Both the position numbers and the translations under genes were made by a program. The notes under the pieces are model-generated. The model had not been told where the DNA came from. It saw nothing but the letters and a program-made list of their open reading frames with translations, and searched no databases. DNA of 5,001 bases from Bacillota bacterium (lineage in GTDB: Bacteria; Bacillota_I; Bacilli_A; RF39; UBA660): positions 1-5,001 of the forward strand of contig JAGZRP010000085.1 in NCBI GenBank assembly GCA_018381595.1. Direction: 5' to 3'. Shown one piece after another: positions 1 to 5,001 of this stretch; position 1 is the first letter of the stretch; the number at the start of each line of letters is the position of its first letter.

Positions 1-120
1 GATCTGATAAAATATACATCATCATCCAATGTCCTCTACGATTATTGCATGTTACTCATTGCCATGGGCATATTGGATGATGATACCATAAGGGCAATAA
101 AGGCCGCTTACGCATGTTAA
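1..120 (+). CDS. C-terminal end of an unknown protein (partial)
   Basis: Frame 1 is open from the window edge to a TAA stop and gives 39 residues ending in LDDDTIRAIKAAYAC. The start lies outside the window. The gene runs in the same direction as the three genes after it, and its stop is 6 nt before the first copy of the shared palindrome, so it probably belongs to the same operon. I do not recognise the family. The tail does not look like the C-terminus of a ParA ATPase, although ParA is what one would expect upstream of parB. The last 20 or so residues have a helix-turn-helix-like pattern that loosely resembles the repeat unit of the next protein, but too weakly to claim homology. It could be a chance open frame, but the length and position make a real gene end more likely. 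Confidence 0.6.
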   Translation, partial: DLIKYTSSSNVLYDYCMLLIAMGILDDDTIRAIKAAYAC

Positions 121-126
121 TTTTAC

Positions 127-149
127 AGAAGTGACATCATGTCACCTCT
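127..149. repeat. Shared palindrome, copy 1 (candidate ParB site or operator)
   Basis: An 11+1+11 palindrome with one mismatched pair (130 with 146). The core at 129-147 is AAGTGACATCATGTCACCT. Its centre base is C at 138, whereas copies 2 and 3 have G, so it is in the inverted orientation. It lies between the end of the unknown upstream gene and the ribosome binding site of the 76-residue gene. The flanks share nothing with the other two copies, so only the palindrome is conserved. Known partition systems often have ParB-binding palindromes near parB; assigning this role here is inference. Confidence 0.85.
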
Positions 150-175
150 AATCTATATTTAAAAGGGGTAAGCAT

Positions 176-406
176 ATGGAAAAAATGAAAATGGATACAC
201 TGTATGAATTGTTAGAGACCGGCAATTTCAATGAAAATACTGATGGTGCTTTGATATGGGCTATCTTCGAATTAGAGAGTTCATATAGTACAATAGAGTC
301 TAAAAAAATTGAAAGACTCTACGAATTGTTAGAGACTAAGAATTGCAACGAAAACACCAAGAGTGCTTTGAGCTGGGCTATTCATGAATTGGAAAAGCAG
401 AAGTGA
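176..406 (+). CDS. 76-residue protein made of two near-identical repeats, function unknown
   Basis: The ATG at 176 follows an AAAAGGGG ribosome binding site (161-168) at good spacing. The protein is a tandem duplication: residues 8-34 and 47-73 match at 20 of 27 positions, with the shared pattern LYELLET-N-NEN-T--AL-WAI-ELE. Each unit looks like two short helices joined by an Asn/Glu-rich turn, so the protein may form a small helical bundle. There is no signal peptide or membrane segment. The TGA stop (404-406) lies inside the second palindrome, and the fic gene follows closely. An exact class I Fic antitoxin motif ([ST]xxxE[GN]) is absent, so it should not be called a Fic antitoxin. It could be a small DNA-binding or partner protein of the operon. 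I do not recognise a family; that it is a gene is fairly sure, its function is not known. Confidence 0.8.
   Translation: MEKMKMDTLYELLETGNFNENTDGALIWAIFELESSYSTIESKKIERLYELLETKNCNENTKSALSWAIHELEKQK
197..394 (+). repeat. Internal 81-bp tandem duplication within the 76-residue gene
   Basis: Segments 197-277 and 314-394 are homologous with an offset of 117 bp. Stretches such as GAATTGTTAGAGAC and GGTGCTTTG/AGTGCTTTG are kept almost unchanged. Many of the differences are at third codon positions (for example AAT/AAC and GAA/GAG choices), which suggests an older duplication kept under protein-level selection. Residues that differ are T/R, G/K, F/C, D/K, G/S, I/S and F/H. Confidence 0.85.
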
Positions 407-421
407 CATGATGTCACTTCT
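399..421. repeat. Shared palindrome, copy 2 (candidate ParB site or operator)
   Basis: A perfect 11+1+11 palindrome centred on G410, with core AAGTGACATGATGTCACTT at 401-419. It overlaps the last codons and the TGA stop of the 76-residue gene and lies upstream of the fic ribosome binding site. As RNA it could form a 9-bp stem with a 5-nt loop, but no U-tract follows, so a terminator role is unlikely. The core is identical to copy 3. Confidence 0.9.
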
Positions 422-449
422 TTGGTAAAAATTATTTTCATGATTAAAA

Positions 450-456
450 AAGGAGG
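450..456 (+). promoter_or_regulatory. Ribosome binding site that decides the fic start
   Basis: AAGGAGG is a near-perfect anti-16S match. It lies 10 nt before GTG 467. The in-frame alternatives upstream, TTG 422 and ATG 440, have no comparable site, so translation most likely starts at the GTG. Confidence 0.8.
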
Positions 457-466
457 CTATTTTGTA

Positions 467-1249
467 GTGACCTATGTTGACATAATAAAAAAATGGAAAG
501 AGAAGAACATAGATAGTATTGAGAAATTGGATCAGCAGCTCAGTAACTTTCGTATCATTTTTGCTTATAACTCTGGAACGATAGAAAATCCACAGATAAC
601 ATATCATGATACTAGAGAAGTCTTCGAAAATGGAAAGGTAATCAATTTTTCTGGTGATACTCGAACCATATTTGAAATTGAAAATCAAAAAAAATGTTAT
701 AATTTTCTTGCATCAAAAATTATAACTAAAGATCCTATTACCCCTGAGTTTATAAAGGAAATTCATTATCAACTTATGCAAGGGGCCTATGACGAACGCC
801 GTTGGGAAAGAGGTGAACGTCCCGGACTTTATAAAATACATGATTATGTAATTGGACAATCAGATCAGGGGGCGCTACCAGAAGAAGTTCCATCTGAAAT
901 TGAGGAATTATGTGACGAAATTTTAAACATTCCTGATAAGGGCGAAAACATTTTAAAAACAGCTGCTTATATCCATTGTAAATTTGAAAATATCCATGCA
1001 TTTGCCGATGGGAATGGAAGAGTAGGACGAACCCTCATGAATTATTACTTGATGATCAATAACTATCCACCTTTAGTAGTATATTCAGAAACAAAAGATC
1101 AGTATTATAAAGCCTTAGACCATTATGACAATACCGGTGATATCACCCCATTTCTTAACTACATGAAAAAGAGTTTGGAGAAAACATGGGTTTTAGGCCA
1201 ACGTCAATCTCCCAAAAACACTCTGCAAGATTTGCATTTGGAACAGTGA
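467..1249 (+). CDS. fic: Fic-domain protein (AMP-transferase family) with N-terminal inhibitory motif
   Basis: Read from GTG 467 the protein has 260 residues. The Fic active-site motif is complete at residues 177-188, HAFADGNGRVGR: the catalytic His, the Asp that binds metal, the Gly-Asn-Gly anion hole and the second Arg. The flap region is present around GLYKIHDYVIG. Near the N-terminus, residues 36-41 read SGTIEN, which matches the [S/T]xxxE[G/N] inhibitory motif; its Glu is known to block ATP binding in class II Fic proteins. The family typically transfers AMP from ATP to a protein hydroxyl, and some members also remove it. The predicted protein is cytoplasmic. It sits between the repeat protein and parB, with palindromes on both sides, so it is probably co-transcribed with them. 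The target is unknown. A role in plasmid maintenance or host modification is inference. All key residues are intact, so it should be active once inhibition is relieved. Confidence 0.93.
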   Translation: MTYVDIIKKWKEKNIDSIEKLDQQLSNFRIIFAYNSGTIENPQITYHDTREVFENGKVINFSGDTRTIFEIENQKKCYNFLASKIITKDPITPEFIKEIHYQLMQGAYDERRWERGERPGLYKIHDYVIGQSDQGALPEEVPSEIEELCDEILNIPDKGENILKTAAYIHCKFENIHAFADGNGRVGRTLMNYYLMINNYPPLVVYSETKDQYYKALDHYDNTGDITPFLNYMKKSLEKTWVLGQRQSPKNTLQDLHLEQ

Positions 1250-1256
1250 AATAAGT

Positions 1257-1279
1257 AGAAGTGACATGATGTCACTTTA
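1257..1279. repeat. Shared palindrome, copy 3 (candidate ParB site or operator)
   Basis: The core AAGTGACATGATGTCACTT (1259-1277) is identical to copy 2; the arms match at 9 of 11 positions because the last two bases differ. The centre is G1268. It starts 7 nt after the fic stop and ends at the ribosome binding site of parB, so bound protein or an RNA hairpin here could affect parB expression. Its position right before parB supports autoregulation or a parS-like role. Confidence 0.88.
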
Positions 1280-1293
1280 GGAAAGGAATTTAT

Positions 1294-2523
1294 ATGAGTA
1301 CTAAACCCCGAATGAATTTAAATATGCTTGGAAATGATTTAAAAGATTCAGCGAAACAGTCTCTTCAAGGTCTCGGAAGCCTTAACCTTTCACAGGAAGG
1401 AAATAGAACTTCTGTACCGGATACTGCACCCAGAACCTTTAAAAGAATATCTTATCAGAAAATCAAGAGCAGCGAACTCAATGATTATCCCATAGATAAC
1501 ATTGAAGAGATGGAGCAGCTCCTTTTACAATATGGTCTGCTGAATCCCCTGAACGTCAATTACATAGAAGATAATGATATCTACGAATTGGAAAGTGGCG
1601 ATAGAAGACTGCATGCTTTACAGAACTTGTTCCAACGCTATGAAAACATTGATGGTGTTGAAGACACAGTGGAATACAAATTATATTGCAAAAATATCCA
1701 TCCTCTTTATGTAAACGGTATTGATTGTATGGTTGAAAAGGGCGATACTGACAGAGATAGTGTAAGAGCACGTATCATCGTACATAACGAATCCGTCCGT
1801 CCTTTTGATGCCCTGCGCACCGCCGAAAAGATTAATGAACTTGCCGAAATTTATACTCGACAAAATAAAAACCTACCGAAAGAACAACGTTTCAACGTCA
1901 ATCAACGAATTGCTGATGATCTGAAAGGTAAATATACGGTCCGTCAAATCATCCGGTATAAAAATTTTGACAGCTTAATTGATGAACTAAAAGAGGTAGT
2001 TATAAACCATGGTATGTCCATATCAGAGATAAGTACTTACCATACATTAACAGTGGATGAACAAGCATTACTCGCTCATTATATAAAACAATATCATATT
2101 CCTGGAGAGAAATTAACTTTACCTTCTATAGAAGAAATACGAGATATGGTTGATTGGACTACTGAGTCTAATAATAGTAGTGAAAAATCATCTTCAGATA
2201 TTCAACCCGACAACGATAATGCTGGTTCCATAAAAGAAGAGACAACTTCTGATTTTTCTGCTGAAAATGAAGATTTTGAAGAGTTGAAAAAGAAAGCTGC
2301 AAAAAAATTGAAAGAAAACAAGGATAACGAGAATGATAAAATTCAGAGTACAGCTTTGGCCATCCAAAAGAAAACGAAACAGCTTGAAAGAGATTTTTAC
2401 AACTATTTAACAGACTCTGAGCAAATAGAACTCGACCTGAGTACTTTCATCAAAGAGTTGGAAACGTCAATAGAAACTTTGTCCAATCTAAAAGAATCTG
2501 TAACAAAATACGAGAGGAGATGA
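1294..2523 (+). CDS. parB: ParB-family DNA-binding / partition protein
   Basis: The ATG at 1294 follows AGGAAAGGAA at good spacing and gives 409 residues. The N-terminal ParB/sulfiredoxin-like domain spans about residues 48-175. It contains SGDRRLHAL (101-109), the equivalent of the GERR box that binds CTP in ParB proteins (Glu is replaced by Asp), and HNESVRPFDALRTAEKI (164-180), matching the box that precedes the DNA-binding part. A helix-turn-helix follows at about 203-225 (QRIADDLKGKYTVRQIIRYKNF). Residues 290-330 form an acidic, Ser-rich linker, and 330-409 is charged and helical, probably a coiled-coil dimerisation tail. ParB proteins bind parS, spread along DNA as clamps and work with a ParA ATPase. 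No ParA is visible in the window. The three palindromes upstream are the obvious candidate binding sites. It could instead be a ParB-like regulator of a conjugative element. Confidence 0.88.
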   Translation: MSTKPRMNLNMLGNDLKDSAKQSLQGLGSLNLSQEGNRTSVPDTAPRTFKRISYQKIKSSELNDYPIDNIEEMEQLLLQYGLLNPLNVNYIEDNDIYELESGDRRLHALQNLFQRYENIDGVEDTVEYKLYCKNIHPLYVNGIDCMVEKGDTDRDSVRARIIVHNESVRPFDALRTAEKINELAEIYTRQNKNLPKEQRFNVNQRIADDLKGKYTVRQIIRYKNFDSLIDELKEVVINHGMSISEISTYHTLTVDEQALLAHYIKQYHIPGEKLTLPSIEEIRDMVDWTTESNNSSEKSSSDIQPDNDNAGSIKEETTSDFSAENEDFEELKKKAAKKLKENKDNENDKIQSTALAIQKKTKQLERDFYNYLTDSEQIELDLSTFIKELETSIETLSNLKESVTKYERR

Positions 2524-2532
2524 GTAGTCTGT

Positions 2533-2652
2533 ATGAGTAAAAGATCTGTAAAGGTTATTGGATCGGCGATTGGAGTTATCATTTTTATATCCGCCTTAAT
2601 CTATCAAATTATGGGCTCCATTAATGGATCCAGTCTATTAGATATTTTTTAG
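2533..2652 (+). CDS. 39-residue single-pass membrane peptide, function unknown
   Basis: An ATG 9 nt after the parB stop opens a 39-codon frame ending in TAG. The N-terminus is basic (K3, R4, K7). It is followed by a hydrophobic stretch at about residues 8-28 (VIGSAIGVIIFISALIYQIM) and a short tail SINGSSLLDIF. The charge pattern predicts the N-terminus in the cytoplasm. The ribosome binding site AGGAG (2515-2519) lies inside the end of parB with rather long spacing (13 nt), so translation may be coupled to parB. A terminator follows directly, so this is the last gene of the operon. I do not recognise it. It lacks the charged C-terminal tail of Fst-type plasmid toxins, so a toxin call is not supported. 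A real small protein is likely but not proven. Confidence 0.6.
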   Translation: MSKRSVKVIGSAIGVIIFISALIYQIMGSINGSSLLDIF

Positions 2653-2659
2653 CGATTGT

Positions 2660-2700
2660 ATAGCGAGGACTTTGAAGCATAAGAAGTCTTCGCTATTTTA
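2660..2700 (+). terminator. Intrinsic terminator of the parB operon
   Basis: TAGCGAGGACTT (2661-2672) pairs with AAGTCTTCGCTA (2684-2695): 12 bp with one G-T wobble, extended by A2660 with T2696, and an 11-nt loop. TTTTATTG follows on the plus strand. The minus-strand side has no T-run, so it mainly serves the plus-strand operon, 8 nt after the stop of the membrane peptide. Confidence 0.85.
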
Positions 2701-2728
2701 TTGAAAAATTATAATAATTCGTTATAAT
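2701..2728 (+). promoter_or_regulatory. Promoter-like sequence pointing antisense into rep
   Basis: TTGAAA (2701-2706), a 16-bp spacer and TATAAT (2723-2728) lie just after the operon terminator. A transcript would start near 2735, has no evident gene to express, and would run antisense into the 3' end of rep. The region is very AT-rich, so a chance match is quite possible. Confidence 0.3.
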
Positions 2729-2790
2729 GCAAAAAAATATACTTGATTTATGACTATTTTTATTGTATTGTTGAAAACGAGACAAAGTAA

Positions 2791-2821
2791 CTATTTTGAC
2801 CCGTTTTTTAAGGTAAAATAG
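2791..2821. repeat. Weak inverted repeat downstream of rep
   Basis: CTATTTT-g-ACC (2791-2801) pairs with GGTAAAATAG (2812-2821): 10 bp with one bulged G and a 10-nt loop. The stem is mostly A-T. It lies about 34 nt past the rep stop. It could help end rep transcription, but there is no good T-run on the minus strand, so the call is weak. Confidence 0.35.
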
Positions 2822-2854
2822 GGTAGTAGCAAAGAGACTATAATTTATTTTTTA

Positions 2855-3793
2855 TTAAATGTATATGGTCACAGAATAATAAGATTTACCTTTTTTATTT
2901 ACAATAAAATCAGTAATATACTTTTCTCCTTTCCAATATTCCAGCATAGTATCCATATATTTTCTTATTCTTTGGAGTTGATTTTTCACTTTTTGCGGTT
3001 CATTAATACCGAAAATTTTATAAATATCATCATATAGTATAATTCTGTCTGCAGTCCGATCTGACTTCATCGCCTCAATTTTTCGTAGCAAAAATCCCTG
3101 TAGAACAATAATATCATTAGTCTTTGATACAGGAGTATCCAAAAGCTTGATATCAATAGCTGATATTTGTTTTCCGGCCTTTGCATACCGGTACAATAAC
3201 GGCTCTACCAAGATTTTGTAAGCAGCAACTCTCCTTCCACCCATTTTTATAGTCATTTTTTCTGCGGATAACAATGATCCATCGTACTTTGCTTCCTCGA
3301 ACCCATAATAGGCAGCTTCTTCGGTGGCATCAATAACAAGTTTTGAGAACATACACTTATCTATAGATTCTTCAATTTCTTTGAGTTTGTCTGGATGTAT
3401 GTACTCGGAATTTGTTTTGCCGGTCATGGCTCTATATACCATGGCCGAAGTGATAAAATGATTACCGGCTTTAAAGAGAGTTACTACAGCATCATGTACT
3501 TCCTGATCGAACAGAGTAAATTCCTTTTTCGTAAGAATATCAATACCTTCGTATGAAAAAGTCACTTTTGTTCGGATTTGTTTTTTTACCCTACCGCCCT
3601 TTTCCATTTCAAGTAATTGTTCACCGGCATCCAGAAGATTCTGAGTAATAAAAGAACTAACATTATCTTTCGTCTTTACCGCTTTTTCCGGCAATTTGGG
3701 TGATATAACAAGTTCTGCAGGACCTTTCTCATTAGGTCTTTCTACCACTACCATTTCGATTTGATTTTCGTCAATCATATTTCGTCTTGCCAT
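2855..3793 (-). CDS. Probable plasmid replication initiator protein
   Basis: The start at 3793 follows AGGAG with 6-nt spacing and gives 312 residues. The N-terminal 50 residues are polar and probably flexible. Residues 89-155 (LTKKEFTLFDQEVHDAVVTLFKAGNHFITSAMVYRAM with the following IEESIDKCMFSKLVIDA, positions 139-156) look like the first winged-helix domain seen in Clostridia plasmid initiators. Residues 193-240 and 250-312 could form the second, ending in a beta-hairpin (YITDFIVNKKGKSYYSVTIYI). The family binds origin DNA and recruits host replication proteins. It is the last gene of a four-gene operon, 14 nt after the VapD-like gene, and converges on the parB operon, a layout typical of plasmid backbones. 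The call rests on pattern memory and context, not on a diagnostic catalytic motif; a DNA-binding protein of another kind remains possible. Confidence 0.65.
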   Translation of the reverse strand: MARRNMIDENQIEMVVVERPNEKGPAELVISPKLPEKAVKTKDNVSSFITQNLLDAGEQLLEMEKGGRVKKQIRTKVTFSYEGIDILTKKEFTLFDQEVHDAVVTLFKAGNHFITSAMVYRAMTGKTNSEYIHPDKLKEIEESIDKCMFSKLVIDATEEAAYYGFEEAKYDGSLLSAEKMTIKMGGRRVAAYKILVEPLLYRYAKAGKQISAIDIKLLDTPVSKTNDIIVLQGFLLRKIEAMKSDRTADRIILYDDIYKIFGINEPQKVKNQLQRIRKYMDTMLEYWKGEKYITDFIVNKKGKSYYSVTIYI

Positions 3794-3807
3794 AATTTTC
3801 TCCTATA

Positions 3808-4284
3808 CTACCGTTCCATTACATTCATTTCAAAAAAATTATGAAGTTTCATTTGATCTGGAGTCTTCTTTTTGAGTCCTGTTGATCTTTTTTTTGCAGA
3901 ATGAGGATCCTTTGAGGCATTCAATTCTTCTCTGGTTGGTACTTTCGCATTTTTACTAAATATATAATTTAGACTATGCTGTCTGCCTATATTAGCTTGC
4001 CTACAATCCCTCATACACTTATTCAACCAGGGATACCTTTTTACAAGATCCCTTACTATTTTTGTTACTTCATAAGATTCCAATGGCTTTTTAGAAACAT
4101 ATACCGTTCCTTCACACCACTCAAATCCTTCTCTTTTTAAAAATCCGCGAATATCATCATAACCATGACGCCAATTAGCTTTAGGATAATAAATTTCTAA
4201 AGTCTTTGTATCAATATCAAATGTCAACTGCTTACGATATCTATCCCTTTCTGCTATTATAGGGACCTGGCCATTATTCTCCAT
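3808..4284 (-). CDS. vapD: VapD-like protein (Cas2-fold endoribonuclease family) with basic C-terminal tail
   Basis: The start at 4284 follows GAGGAG with 10-nt spacing and gives 158 residues. Residues 19-100 follow the VapD pattern: QLTFDID (20s, with Asp residues in the place of the conserved strand-1 acid), YDDIRGFLKREGFEWCEGTVYVS (42-64; the family's aYxdIxxxLxxxGFxxxQGSvY, with Glu instead of Gln), then YPWLNKCMRDCRQANI (84-99). VapD proteins resemble Cas2 and some cleave RNA; in Haemophilus VapXD and related systems they act as toxins. Typical VapD is about 90-95 residues, so this one carries about 60 extra. The tail is basic (KKRSTGLKKK) and ends with QMKLHNFF. The start lies 28 nt inside the upstream 99-residue gene, so the two are translationally linked. 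Whether it is toxic here is inference. Confidence 0.72.
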   Translation of the reverse strand: MENNGQVPIIAERDRYRKQLTFDIDTKTLEIYYPKANWRHGYDDIRGFLKREGFEWCEGTVYVSKKPLESYEVTKIVRDLVKRYPWLNKCMRDCRQANIGRQHSLNYIFSKNAKVPTREELNASKDPHSAKKRSTGLKKKTPDQMKLHNFFEMNVMER

Positions 4285-4556
4285 ACGTTATAATTCTCCT
4301 CAGGATATTCCTCATCAACCCATTTCCAGTCACGTACACACTTCAGAAACTCTTTGTTATCCTCCAATTCCAGCATTCCTAATTGCAAACAGCCATACAA
4401 ATTCTCATCACCACCAAAAGACAAACAATGAGAAGATTCTCTAATACCCGTGATCTGCCCTTCGCGGTTATTAAATGCTTCATTTGCAATGGATACTAAT
4501 AGAGTCACCACCTTTTCAGGCAAAGATTGCTTAAAAAAAATCACACTCTTTTGCAT
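4257..4556 (-). CDS. 99-residue acidic protein, possible partner of VapD
   Basis: The ATG at 4556 is 4 nt after the stop of the XRE gene; the purine-rich GGGGGTAGGAGG directly upstream supplies the ribosome binding site, though AGGAGG touches the ATG, so the GTG at codon 5 is an alternative start. The protein begins SVIFFKQSLPEKVVTLLVSI, probably an amphipathic helix, has a central YGCLQLGMLELE segment, and ends with an acidic stretch rich in Trp (WKWVDEEYPEENYNVW). There is no signal peptide. I do not recognise a named family. Its 3' end overlaps the VapD-like start by 28 nt. In Haemophilus the antitoxin VapX is encoded just upstream of VapD, so this acidic protein sits where an antitoxin would be; that is inference from position and charge only. 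Confidence 0.8.
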   Translation of the reverse strand: MQKSVIFFKQSLPEKVVTLLVSIANEAFNNREGQITGIRESSHCLSFGGDENLYGCLQLGMLELEDNKEFLKCVRDWKWVDEEYPEENYNVWRIMARSL

Positions 4557-4560
4557 CCTC

Positions 4561-4737
4561 CTACCCCCTTTCCTTCTTCACCGAAACCAATTTTTCGACA
4601 ATTAATTTTTCGACGTACACCGGAGGAACTCTCACACCAGACTCCCAGTTTTCCAGCGTTCGAAGCGGAATCTCCAACAACACGCTCACTTCCTTTTGCG
4701 TCAAACCAGAAAGATACCTAGCTTCTTTGATTGTCAT
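4561..4737 (-). CDS. Small XRE-type helix-turn-helix regulator
   Basis: The ATG at 4737 follows GAGG (minus strand, 4749-4746) with 8-nt spacing and encodes 58 residues. It is almost nothing but a helix-turn-helix: LSGLTQKEVSVLLEIPLRTL (residues 9-28) is the two-helix core, then ENWESGVRVPP (29-39), the typical XRE ENWExGxRxPP signature, and a helix VEKLIVEKL (42-50). Such short XRE proteins are common in Clostridia mobile elements. It is the first gene of the rep operon, and the operon promoter holds a perfect palindrome, so autoregulation is the simplest reading. Its stop overlaps the ribosome binding site of the next gene, so translation is coupled. Repression rather than activation is inferred from the position of the palindrome. 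Confidence 0.9.
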   Translation of the reverse strand: MTIKEARYLSGLTQKEVSVLLEIPLRTLENWESGVRVPPVYVEKLIVEKLVSVKKERG

Positions 4738-4775
4738 AGTACCATCCTCACATTATTGAAATATGTAATGTAATC

Positions 4776-4804
4776 ATTATACCACCCATTGGGTGGTCTG
4801 TCAA
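4776..4804 (-). promoter_or_regulatory. Consensus sigma-A promoter of the rep operon
   Basis: On the minus strand TTGACA (4804-4799), a 17-bp spacer and TATAAT (4781-4776) match the consensus at all 12 positions with ideal spacing. Transcription would start near 4769, giving a leader of about 30 nt before the XRE gene. Such a strong promoter usually needs repression, which fits the palindrome in its spacer. Confidence 0.9.
4781..4797. promoter_or_regulatory. Palindromic operator inside the rep-operon promoter
   Basis: ACCACCCATTGGGTGGT is a perfect 8+1+8 palindrome that fills nearly all of the -35/-10 spacer and overlaps the first base of the -10 box. Bound protein would block RNA polymerase. 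The likely binder is the XRE protein encoded directly downstream; this is inference. It is G/C-rich in an AT-rich setting and differs in sequence from the palindromes near parB, so a different protein probably binds it. Confidence 0.75.
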
Positions 4805-4843
4805 ACCGTAACGAGCCAAAGTGCCGACTGAAACTGCAAAAGG

Positions 4844-4906
4844 ATACCCACAAATAACGCAAATATCGATAAAGAATCACCCGGGCATATCCACATAAAA
4901 CAACGC
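4844..4906. repeat. Two direct repeats with DnaA-box-like cores
   Basis: ATACCCACAAATAACGC (4844-4860) and ATATCCACATAAAACAACGC (4887-4906) are imperfect direct repeats, 43 bp apart from start to start, about four helical turns. The core ATATCCACA (4887-4895) matches the DnaA box TTATCCACA at 8 of 9 positions, and ATACCCACA (4844-4852) at 7 of 9. Two sites only, so an origin role is tentative. Confidence 0.4.
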
Positions 4907-4909
4907 TAG

Positions 4910-4925
4910 ATGTCCTGAAGGACAT
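4910..4925. repeat. Perfect inverted repeat ATGTCCT-GA-AGGACAT
   Basis: Two 7-bp arms with a 2-nt centre. A plus-strand TATAAT (4927-4932) follows directly, so it could be an operator of a promoter reading out of the window, but no good -35 box is found (CGCTAG at 4904-4909). It could also be a protein-binding site of an origin. Confidence 0.6.
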
Positions 4926-5001
4926 ATATAATAAAGGGGCTGAAAAAATTAGACTCTTCTTTTTTTCAACGCTTTTATATGCCTCAAATAATTTCTGCAA
5001 T

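Follow-up and report, generated by a model that had tools for sequence, protein, structure and literature searches.

A palindrome repeated at three gene junctions ahead of parB on a likely plasmid of a Bacillota bacterium, with a divergent ParB as its predicted reader

Introduction

Among described systems comparable to the locus considered here, the KorB protein of plasmid RK2 binds the 16-bp OB both close to promoters and at a distance from them, and moves along DNA as a sliding cytidine triphosphate (CTP) clamp (PMC11790492), and in the Firmicutes plasmid pSM19035 the centromere sites of the omega (ParB)-parS system overlap the promoters of plasmid control genes at several places (PMC9499535). 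In cluster A mycobacteriophages the site of one repressor, the stoperator, is repeated along transcribed regions, mostly without association with promoters, and blocks elongation (PMC6550527). Further, the site specificity of ParB and Noc switches by four residues (PMC7383237). Here we consider a palindrome present in three copies within 5,001 nucleotides from a Bacillota bacterium (assembly GCA_018381595.1, contig JAGZRP010000085.1, positions 1 to 5,001 of the forward strand; this whole stretch is called the window), which is likely bacterial plasmid DNA. The copies punctuate successive gene junctions, the last of them just before parB. By analogy with the above systems we tentatively propose, giving the proposal not quite even weight, that they are binding sites of the ParB encoded downstream and form a centromere plus operators of non-canonical specificity. 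Plasmid partition systems of anaerobic Firmicutes are, in our judgement, thinly studied.

The palindrome and its three copies

The palindrome, AAGTGACAT(S)ATGTCACTT, measures 19-23 bp, and the invariant 15-bp dyad of all three copies is GTGACATSATGTCAC:

Copy 1: 127-149, no strand; AGAAGTGACATCATGTCACCTCT, with the 15-bp core at 131-145
Copy 2: 399-421, no strand; perfect 23-nt dyad with centre G
Copy 3: 1257-1279, no strand; 19-nt perfect dyad at 1259-1277, abutting the parB ribosome-binding site

In copy 1 perfect symmetry covers 15 nt, and one pair farther from the centre is broken; copy 2 includes the stop codon TGA (404-406) of a gene for a repeat protein; and the parB start lies 14 bp past copy 3. 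A 19-mer scan of both strands recovers the coordinates given by a first-pass annotation of this DNA and, with as many as 3 mismatches allowed, returns these three copies and no others, bearing out its statement that no full copy lies elsewhere in the window; 200 dinucleotide shuffles yield none. The half-sites GTGACAT and ATGTCAC likewise occur three times each in the 5,001 bases, all within the copies. Each copy occupies its own gap between co-oriented genes, after a stop codon and ahead of the ribosome-binding site that follows or, in the case of copy 2, overlapping the preceding stop, which agrees with the earlier claim that every copy lies at the junction before a gene. With positions drawn at random from 1-2523, all three gaps would receive one copy each with a probability of about 6e-5. 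A lone palindrome of such quality is not improbable by itself: the window holds two dyads scoring at least 9, and shuffles hold 0 to 3, with 9 of 20 having at least one. Since a single dyad of equal quality is common in shuffles, it is the repetition and the placement that constitute the signal.

The first-pass annotation had further held that the copies share no flanking sequence. This stands in part, as copies 2 and 3 agree at 24 of 25 positions over AAG[C/T]AGAAGTGACATGATGTCACTT, including some of the left flank. Its remark that the palindrome does not match canonical parS is upheld, no TGTTTCACGTGAAACA-like site being present in the window within 4 mismatches, nor is there a Noc site (NBS) within 3 mismatches. 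Comparison with PLSDB returned a single 17-base match (E about 5), and a literature search by site sequence showed no description of the palindrome among the matches listed, a weak negative, with many of these matches being to the 9-mer AAGTGACAT alone.

Promoter, terminator and hairpin signals

Copy 1 supplies a -35-like GTGACA, 17 nt before TATATT at 154-159, as part of a promoter-like pair scoring 10/12; copy 2 has a weaker pair (9/12); and copy 3 takes part in no such pair, and for it the promoter reading was rejected. A terminator reading was likewise rejected, with one antisense match, at copy 3, against a shuffle mean of 2.4. The promoter-like pair of copy 1 favors an alternative in which the copies are operators of another plasmid repressor; one candidate would be a protein of the ribbon-helix-helix or helix-turn-helix (HTH) type with its gene before position 1. 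Such a repressor would occupy all the junctions, covering an internal promoter (copy 1) or else acting as an elongation roadblock in the manner of phage stoperators. We regard this as a real if doubtful possibility, given that the window is no richer than shuffles in promoter-like sites (24 versus 20.3, standard deviation 5.2), that copy 3 is without such a pair, and that no such repressor is recognized in the window.

A different role is conceivable at the RNA level, where the copies would form hairpins in the operon mRNA, serving to process or stabilize it between cistrons and thereby to adjust the yield of each gene relative to the others. The copies do occupy the gaps of an apparent single transcript, and copy 3 alone (23 nt, -9.9 kcal/mol) folds better than all 200 shuffles (z -4.7). 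Additionally, the sense-strand centre base is G in two of the three window copies and in all six copies in a phage described below, an orientation which a DNA dyad does not need. With flanks, however, copies 1, 2 and 3 fold at -10.7, -16.2 and -9.9 kcal/mol, respectively (z -0.9, -1.9 and -2.1), and copy 1, whose stem has a broken pair without compensation, is equalled or surpassed by 31 of 200 shuffles. The exact sequence is kept where paired changes would be tolerated (n=3), ribosomes must enter copy 2, which holds a stop codon, and an Rfam scan of the window gave no family at gathering score. On balance, we consider the hairpin explanation rather unlikely.

ParB and other predicted DNA-binding proteins of the window

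Three genes of the window bear on the identity of the reader:

1294-2523, plus strand; parB, encoding a divergent ParB with a GDRR motif, an HTH domain and a helical C-terminus (AlphaFold2 model, fold matches)
2855-3793, minus strand; gene for a replication-initiator-like protein of RctB-like fold, convergent with parB (structure model and Foldseek)
4561-4737, minus strand; gene for an HTH_3 repressor, for which a separate operator is predicted (HTH_3 match, promoter-overlapping palindrome)

The AlphaFold2 model of ParB (mean predicted local distance difference test score, pLDDT, 77.3) matches chains of Noc, ParB and KorB, and the predicted structure has the N-terminal ParB fold followed by an HTH domain that marks the family. 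Among 28 aligned family members, the ParB_N domain is detected in 18 at E 0.01, and the G and both R residues of GDRR are invariant, with the D present in at least 90%; this would correspond to the CTP-pocket motif G-[ED]-R-R. The parB product is hence predicted to be a true but divergent ParB with the ParB/Noc/KorB fold.

The model of the initiator-like protein (mean pLDDT 68.0) matches RctB domains 2-3 in Foldseek (E=9.5e-5, template modelling score 0.37-0.40), and its gene and parB are predicted to be plasmid core genes. The region upstream of the initiator gene carries no copy of the palindrome. The HTH_3 repressor gene has a 12/12 sigma-70-like promoter pair (4804-4776), over the spacer of which lies a perfect palindrome, ACCACCCATTGGGTGGT (4781-4797), predicted to be a clear autorepression site of an HTH_3/VapD-like operon. 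As ACCACCCATTGGGTGGT sits in its own promoter, this repressor most likely reads that site and probably not the three-copy palindrome; it is also the sole small repressor recognized in the window, which counts against operators of a repressor other than ParB. Because the HTH_3 repressor has its own palindrome and none of the three copies lies upstream of the initiator gene, ParB is the likeliest reader among the proteins seen in the window.

Distantly related plasmids

Close relatives were sought in genome contigs, in viral contigs (ParB or Rep queries) and, by tblastn with the window ParB, in plasmids and phages, and close-relative DNA was found in none of these collections. Among plasmids, the ParB family members P0039 and P0048 had no match, P0028 matched two E. 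eligens-type records only, and the initiator had one distant match (31.7%) in Anaerotruncus; this plasmid went unused as a comparison, the 16.7 kb read there having no annotated par gene. A tblastn search with the E. eligens ParB matched 10 plasmid records, three of which were read (E. eligens, Butyrivibrio and Clostridioides). In two of these three, repeated palindromes lie directly upstream of parA, each with its own sequence.

The E. eligens plasmid (626,744 bp), in which parA lies 2 bp upstream of parB, has six TGAACTSAGTTCA matches at no more than 1 mismatch, as opposed to 0 for the reversed control pattern. Four of the six are intergenic, three before parA (dyads at -304, -182 and -86 from it, the one at -86 with one mismatch) and one 6 kb downstream. 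The region L031 3690-3992 of this plasmid brings together a near-canonical parS and the three TGAACTSAGTTCA dyads, all upstream of parA; no literature was found on E. eligens with ParB and parS. Butyrivibrio pCY186 carries 11 TGTAAAN7TTTACA-type sites (0 or 1 pair off) in about 1 kb before parA (L041 1655-2643). Four of its five exact sites lie before parA, and the fifth, at 60,404, is in a gap between other genes. The cluster before parA has the form of a centromere-like array. Near parAB, Clostridioides sp. pESS10701c carries a fic gene, and a 71-aa gene stands ahead of fic (L040 3995-7234). This fic was rejected as a close relative of that in the window (23% identity over 115 columns), and the small protein upstream of it has no match to the repeat protein of the window.

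The core in viral sequences

The 15-mer GTGACATSATGTCAC occurs at 60 loci among the 2.9 million contigs of IMG/VR, and a ParB profile at E 0.1 detected no ParB among the open reading frames (ORFs) of at least 60 aa in these loci, which are parts of contigs. In the first 29 loci (16-mer), 19 of 32 sites are intergenic by mechanical ORF calling, and tblastn with ParB, the initiator, Fic and the repeat protein at E 0.01 gave no match. Judged by eye, GTGACATSATGTCAC stands beside an Arc-type ribbon-helix-helix-like gene in four of the 29 (L003, L011, L012 and L026), with such genes forming a divergent pair in L003 and L011; this favors operators of another repressor. As a separate observation, L067 589-839 contains ten units of GTGACATCATGTC, mostly at 23-24 nt spacing.

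Six perfect 21-bp copies, and none further at up to 3 mismatches in 43,618 bases, occur in a GC-rich phage with a gene that by eye resembles one for DNA polymerase:

IMGVR_UViG_3300044995_000108, 37,625-43,443 (L057 7713-13525), one strand; TTTGTGACATCATGTCACAAA copies at gene junctions

Measured from its centre, each copy precedes by 32-45 nt a start codon that has a sequence resembling a ribosome-binding site, all on the same strand, and one copy forms the 3' coding end of the preceding gene (..EVCDMMSQT). By sequence, the set looks like a palindromic stoperator system, and its occurrence at six junctions is a further point for another repressor. Against this, the core common to window and phage may be a coincidence, by our estimate rather than by computation, because the number of possible 15-bp odd dyads is 16,384 and the collection searched is very large.

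Several of these results weigh against ParB as the reader. The phage layout is that of the window, and no ParB was detected in the 33.6 of 43.6 kb read (all but bases 1-10,000), so such punctuation need not involve ParB. The window itself contains no parA, and no coding DNA was found for any of 50 ParB homologues in the collections searched. The E. eligens plasmid has one near-canonical parS, TGTTTCACATGAAACA, at 290181, 0.37 kb upstream of parA; the TGAACTSAGTTCA sites may then serve another protein, which weakens the argument from this relative. Two of the six TGAACTSAGTTCA matches fall inside unrelated genes, and the TGAnnTSAnnTCA resemblance is post hoc, agreement in 4 or more of the 6 half-site letters having a chance of 0.04. 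The 8.7 kb near parAB of the Clostridioides plasmid show no strong repeated dyad, only one weak AT-rich family, and the sole perfect dyad, of 29 nt and upstream of parA, occurs once on the plasmid. Nevertheless, the simplest reading of the first-pass annotation, a ParB-bound centromere doubling as operators, finds partial support and is the best single reading in light of the predicted ParB fold, the lack of canonical parS and the palindromes of two of three relatives, qualified by the phage without a detected ParB.

Neighbouring genes

The genes preceding parB are as follows:

1-120, plus strand; 3' end of an ORF, last 39 codons (open frame 1, TAA at 118-120)
176-406, plus strand; gene for a 76-aa protein with two repeats of about 39 residues, no family (repeat analysis and homologues)
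467-1249, plus strand; fic, encoding a FICD-like Fic protein (PF02661, E=1.4e-18; longer frame 443-1246)

The repeat protein is encoded by an 89-nt DNA repeat (74%). Its 10 homologues are near-identical copies only (93-100% identity over 30-100% of its length), it has no match among plasmids, and a weak match to EntA immunity (E 0.008) is below cut-off. The Fic protein has FICD homologues in the PDB and carries HAFADGNGRVGR and an SGTIEN motif, presumably of the inhibitory type; its start is most likely GTG 467, judging by AGGAGG at 451-456. The fic stretch is the sole similarity of the window to six Lactococcus plasmids, two of which were read. Farther along, 3808-4737 holds genes for a VapD-like protein (below the NCBIfam cut-off), a small protein and the HTH repressor, possibly a toxin-antitoxin type operon.

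The position of the repeat gene and fic, each between two copies, together with the few left bases common to copies 2 and 3, underlies another suggestion of the first-pass annotation, that the palindromes are recombination sites bounding single-gene cassettes. This finds no support and appears very improbable: no recombinase is recognized in the window, the GC content of the flanked genes (0.346 and 0.344) is like that of parB (0.357), and the repeat-protein homologues P0094, P0095, P0097, P0099 and P0100, as seen in proteins only, change inside the gene and not at its end. These junction-bearing homologues may be assembly chimeras.

Proposed mechanism and implications

On the preferred reading, in which we infer ParB binding, partition and repression alike and treat the copies as predicted binding sites, a ParB dimer would bind each dyad through its HTH domain and then load onto the DNA as the kind of CTP clamp known from ParB and KorB. 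Loaded ParB would engage a ParA encoded beyond the window to effect plasmid partition, with the three-site cluster serving as the centromere. Bound or sliding ParB could hinder RNA polymerase at or between the sites, thereby lowering transcription through or from the junctions, and the ParB level would feed back on its own operon. Two reasons may account for the sites being in the gaps: a fixed stretch of 19-23 bp can be tolerated in such places, and the next gene is limited from that position. A bolder version, which we hold to be improbable, has a ParB of new specificity with a palindromic centromere at every operon junction, such that the partition complex is a chain of elongation roadblocks and segregation and output are set together.

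If the proposal is true, the ParB-site pair could serve as an orthogonal tag and stability cassette. It would also add a case of ParB sites inside, rather than before, a transcribed operon, and the sharing of DNA by a loaded ParB clamp and RNA polymerase would become testable.

Comparison with described systems

Canonical parS and the Noc NBS resemble the window sites as palindromes for a ParB/Noc fold, here that of the predicted reader, and differ from them in sequence and length. The pSM19035 omega system likewise has centromere sites at several places by the plasmid's own genes; however, omega, of the ribbon-helix-helix class, sits on 7-bp repeats arranged in runs, whereas the window pairs an HTH-type ParB with single long dyads. 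Stoperators lack symmetry and for the most part share one orientation, unlike the three palindromes of the window, which are dyads with G central in two sense strands and have no repressor identified for them. KorB/OB of RK2 offers the closest working model by analogy, combining a ParB-fold protein with short dyad sites at several places of the core genes. The OB core is an odd-centred dyad; its sequence, which was not searched for in the window, presumably differs from the palindrome. In contrast to RK2, the window sites lie at internal junctions of one operon and no KorA-like partner is seen. What is new here is at most the sequence of the site and its placement at the junctions.
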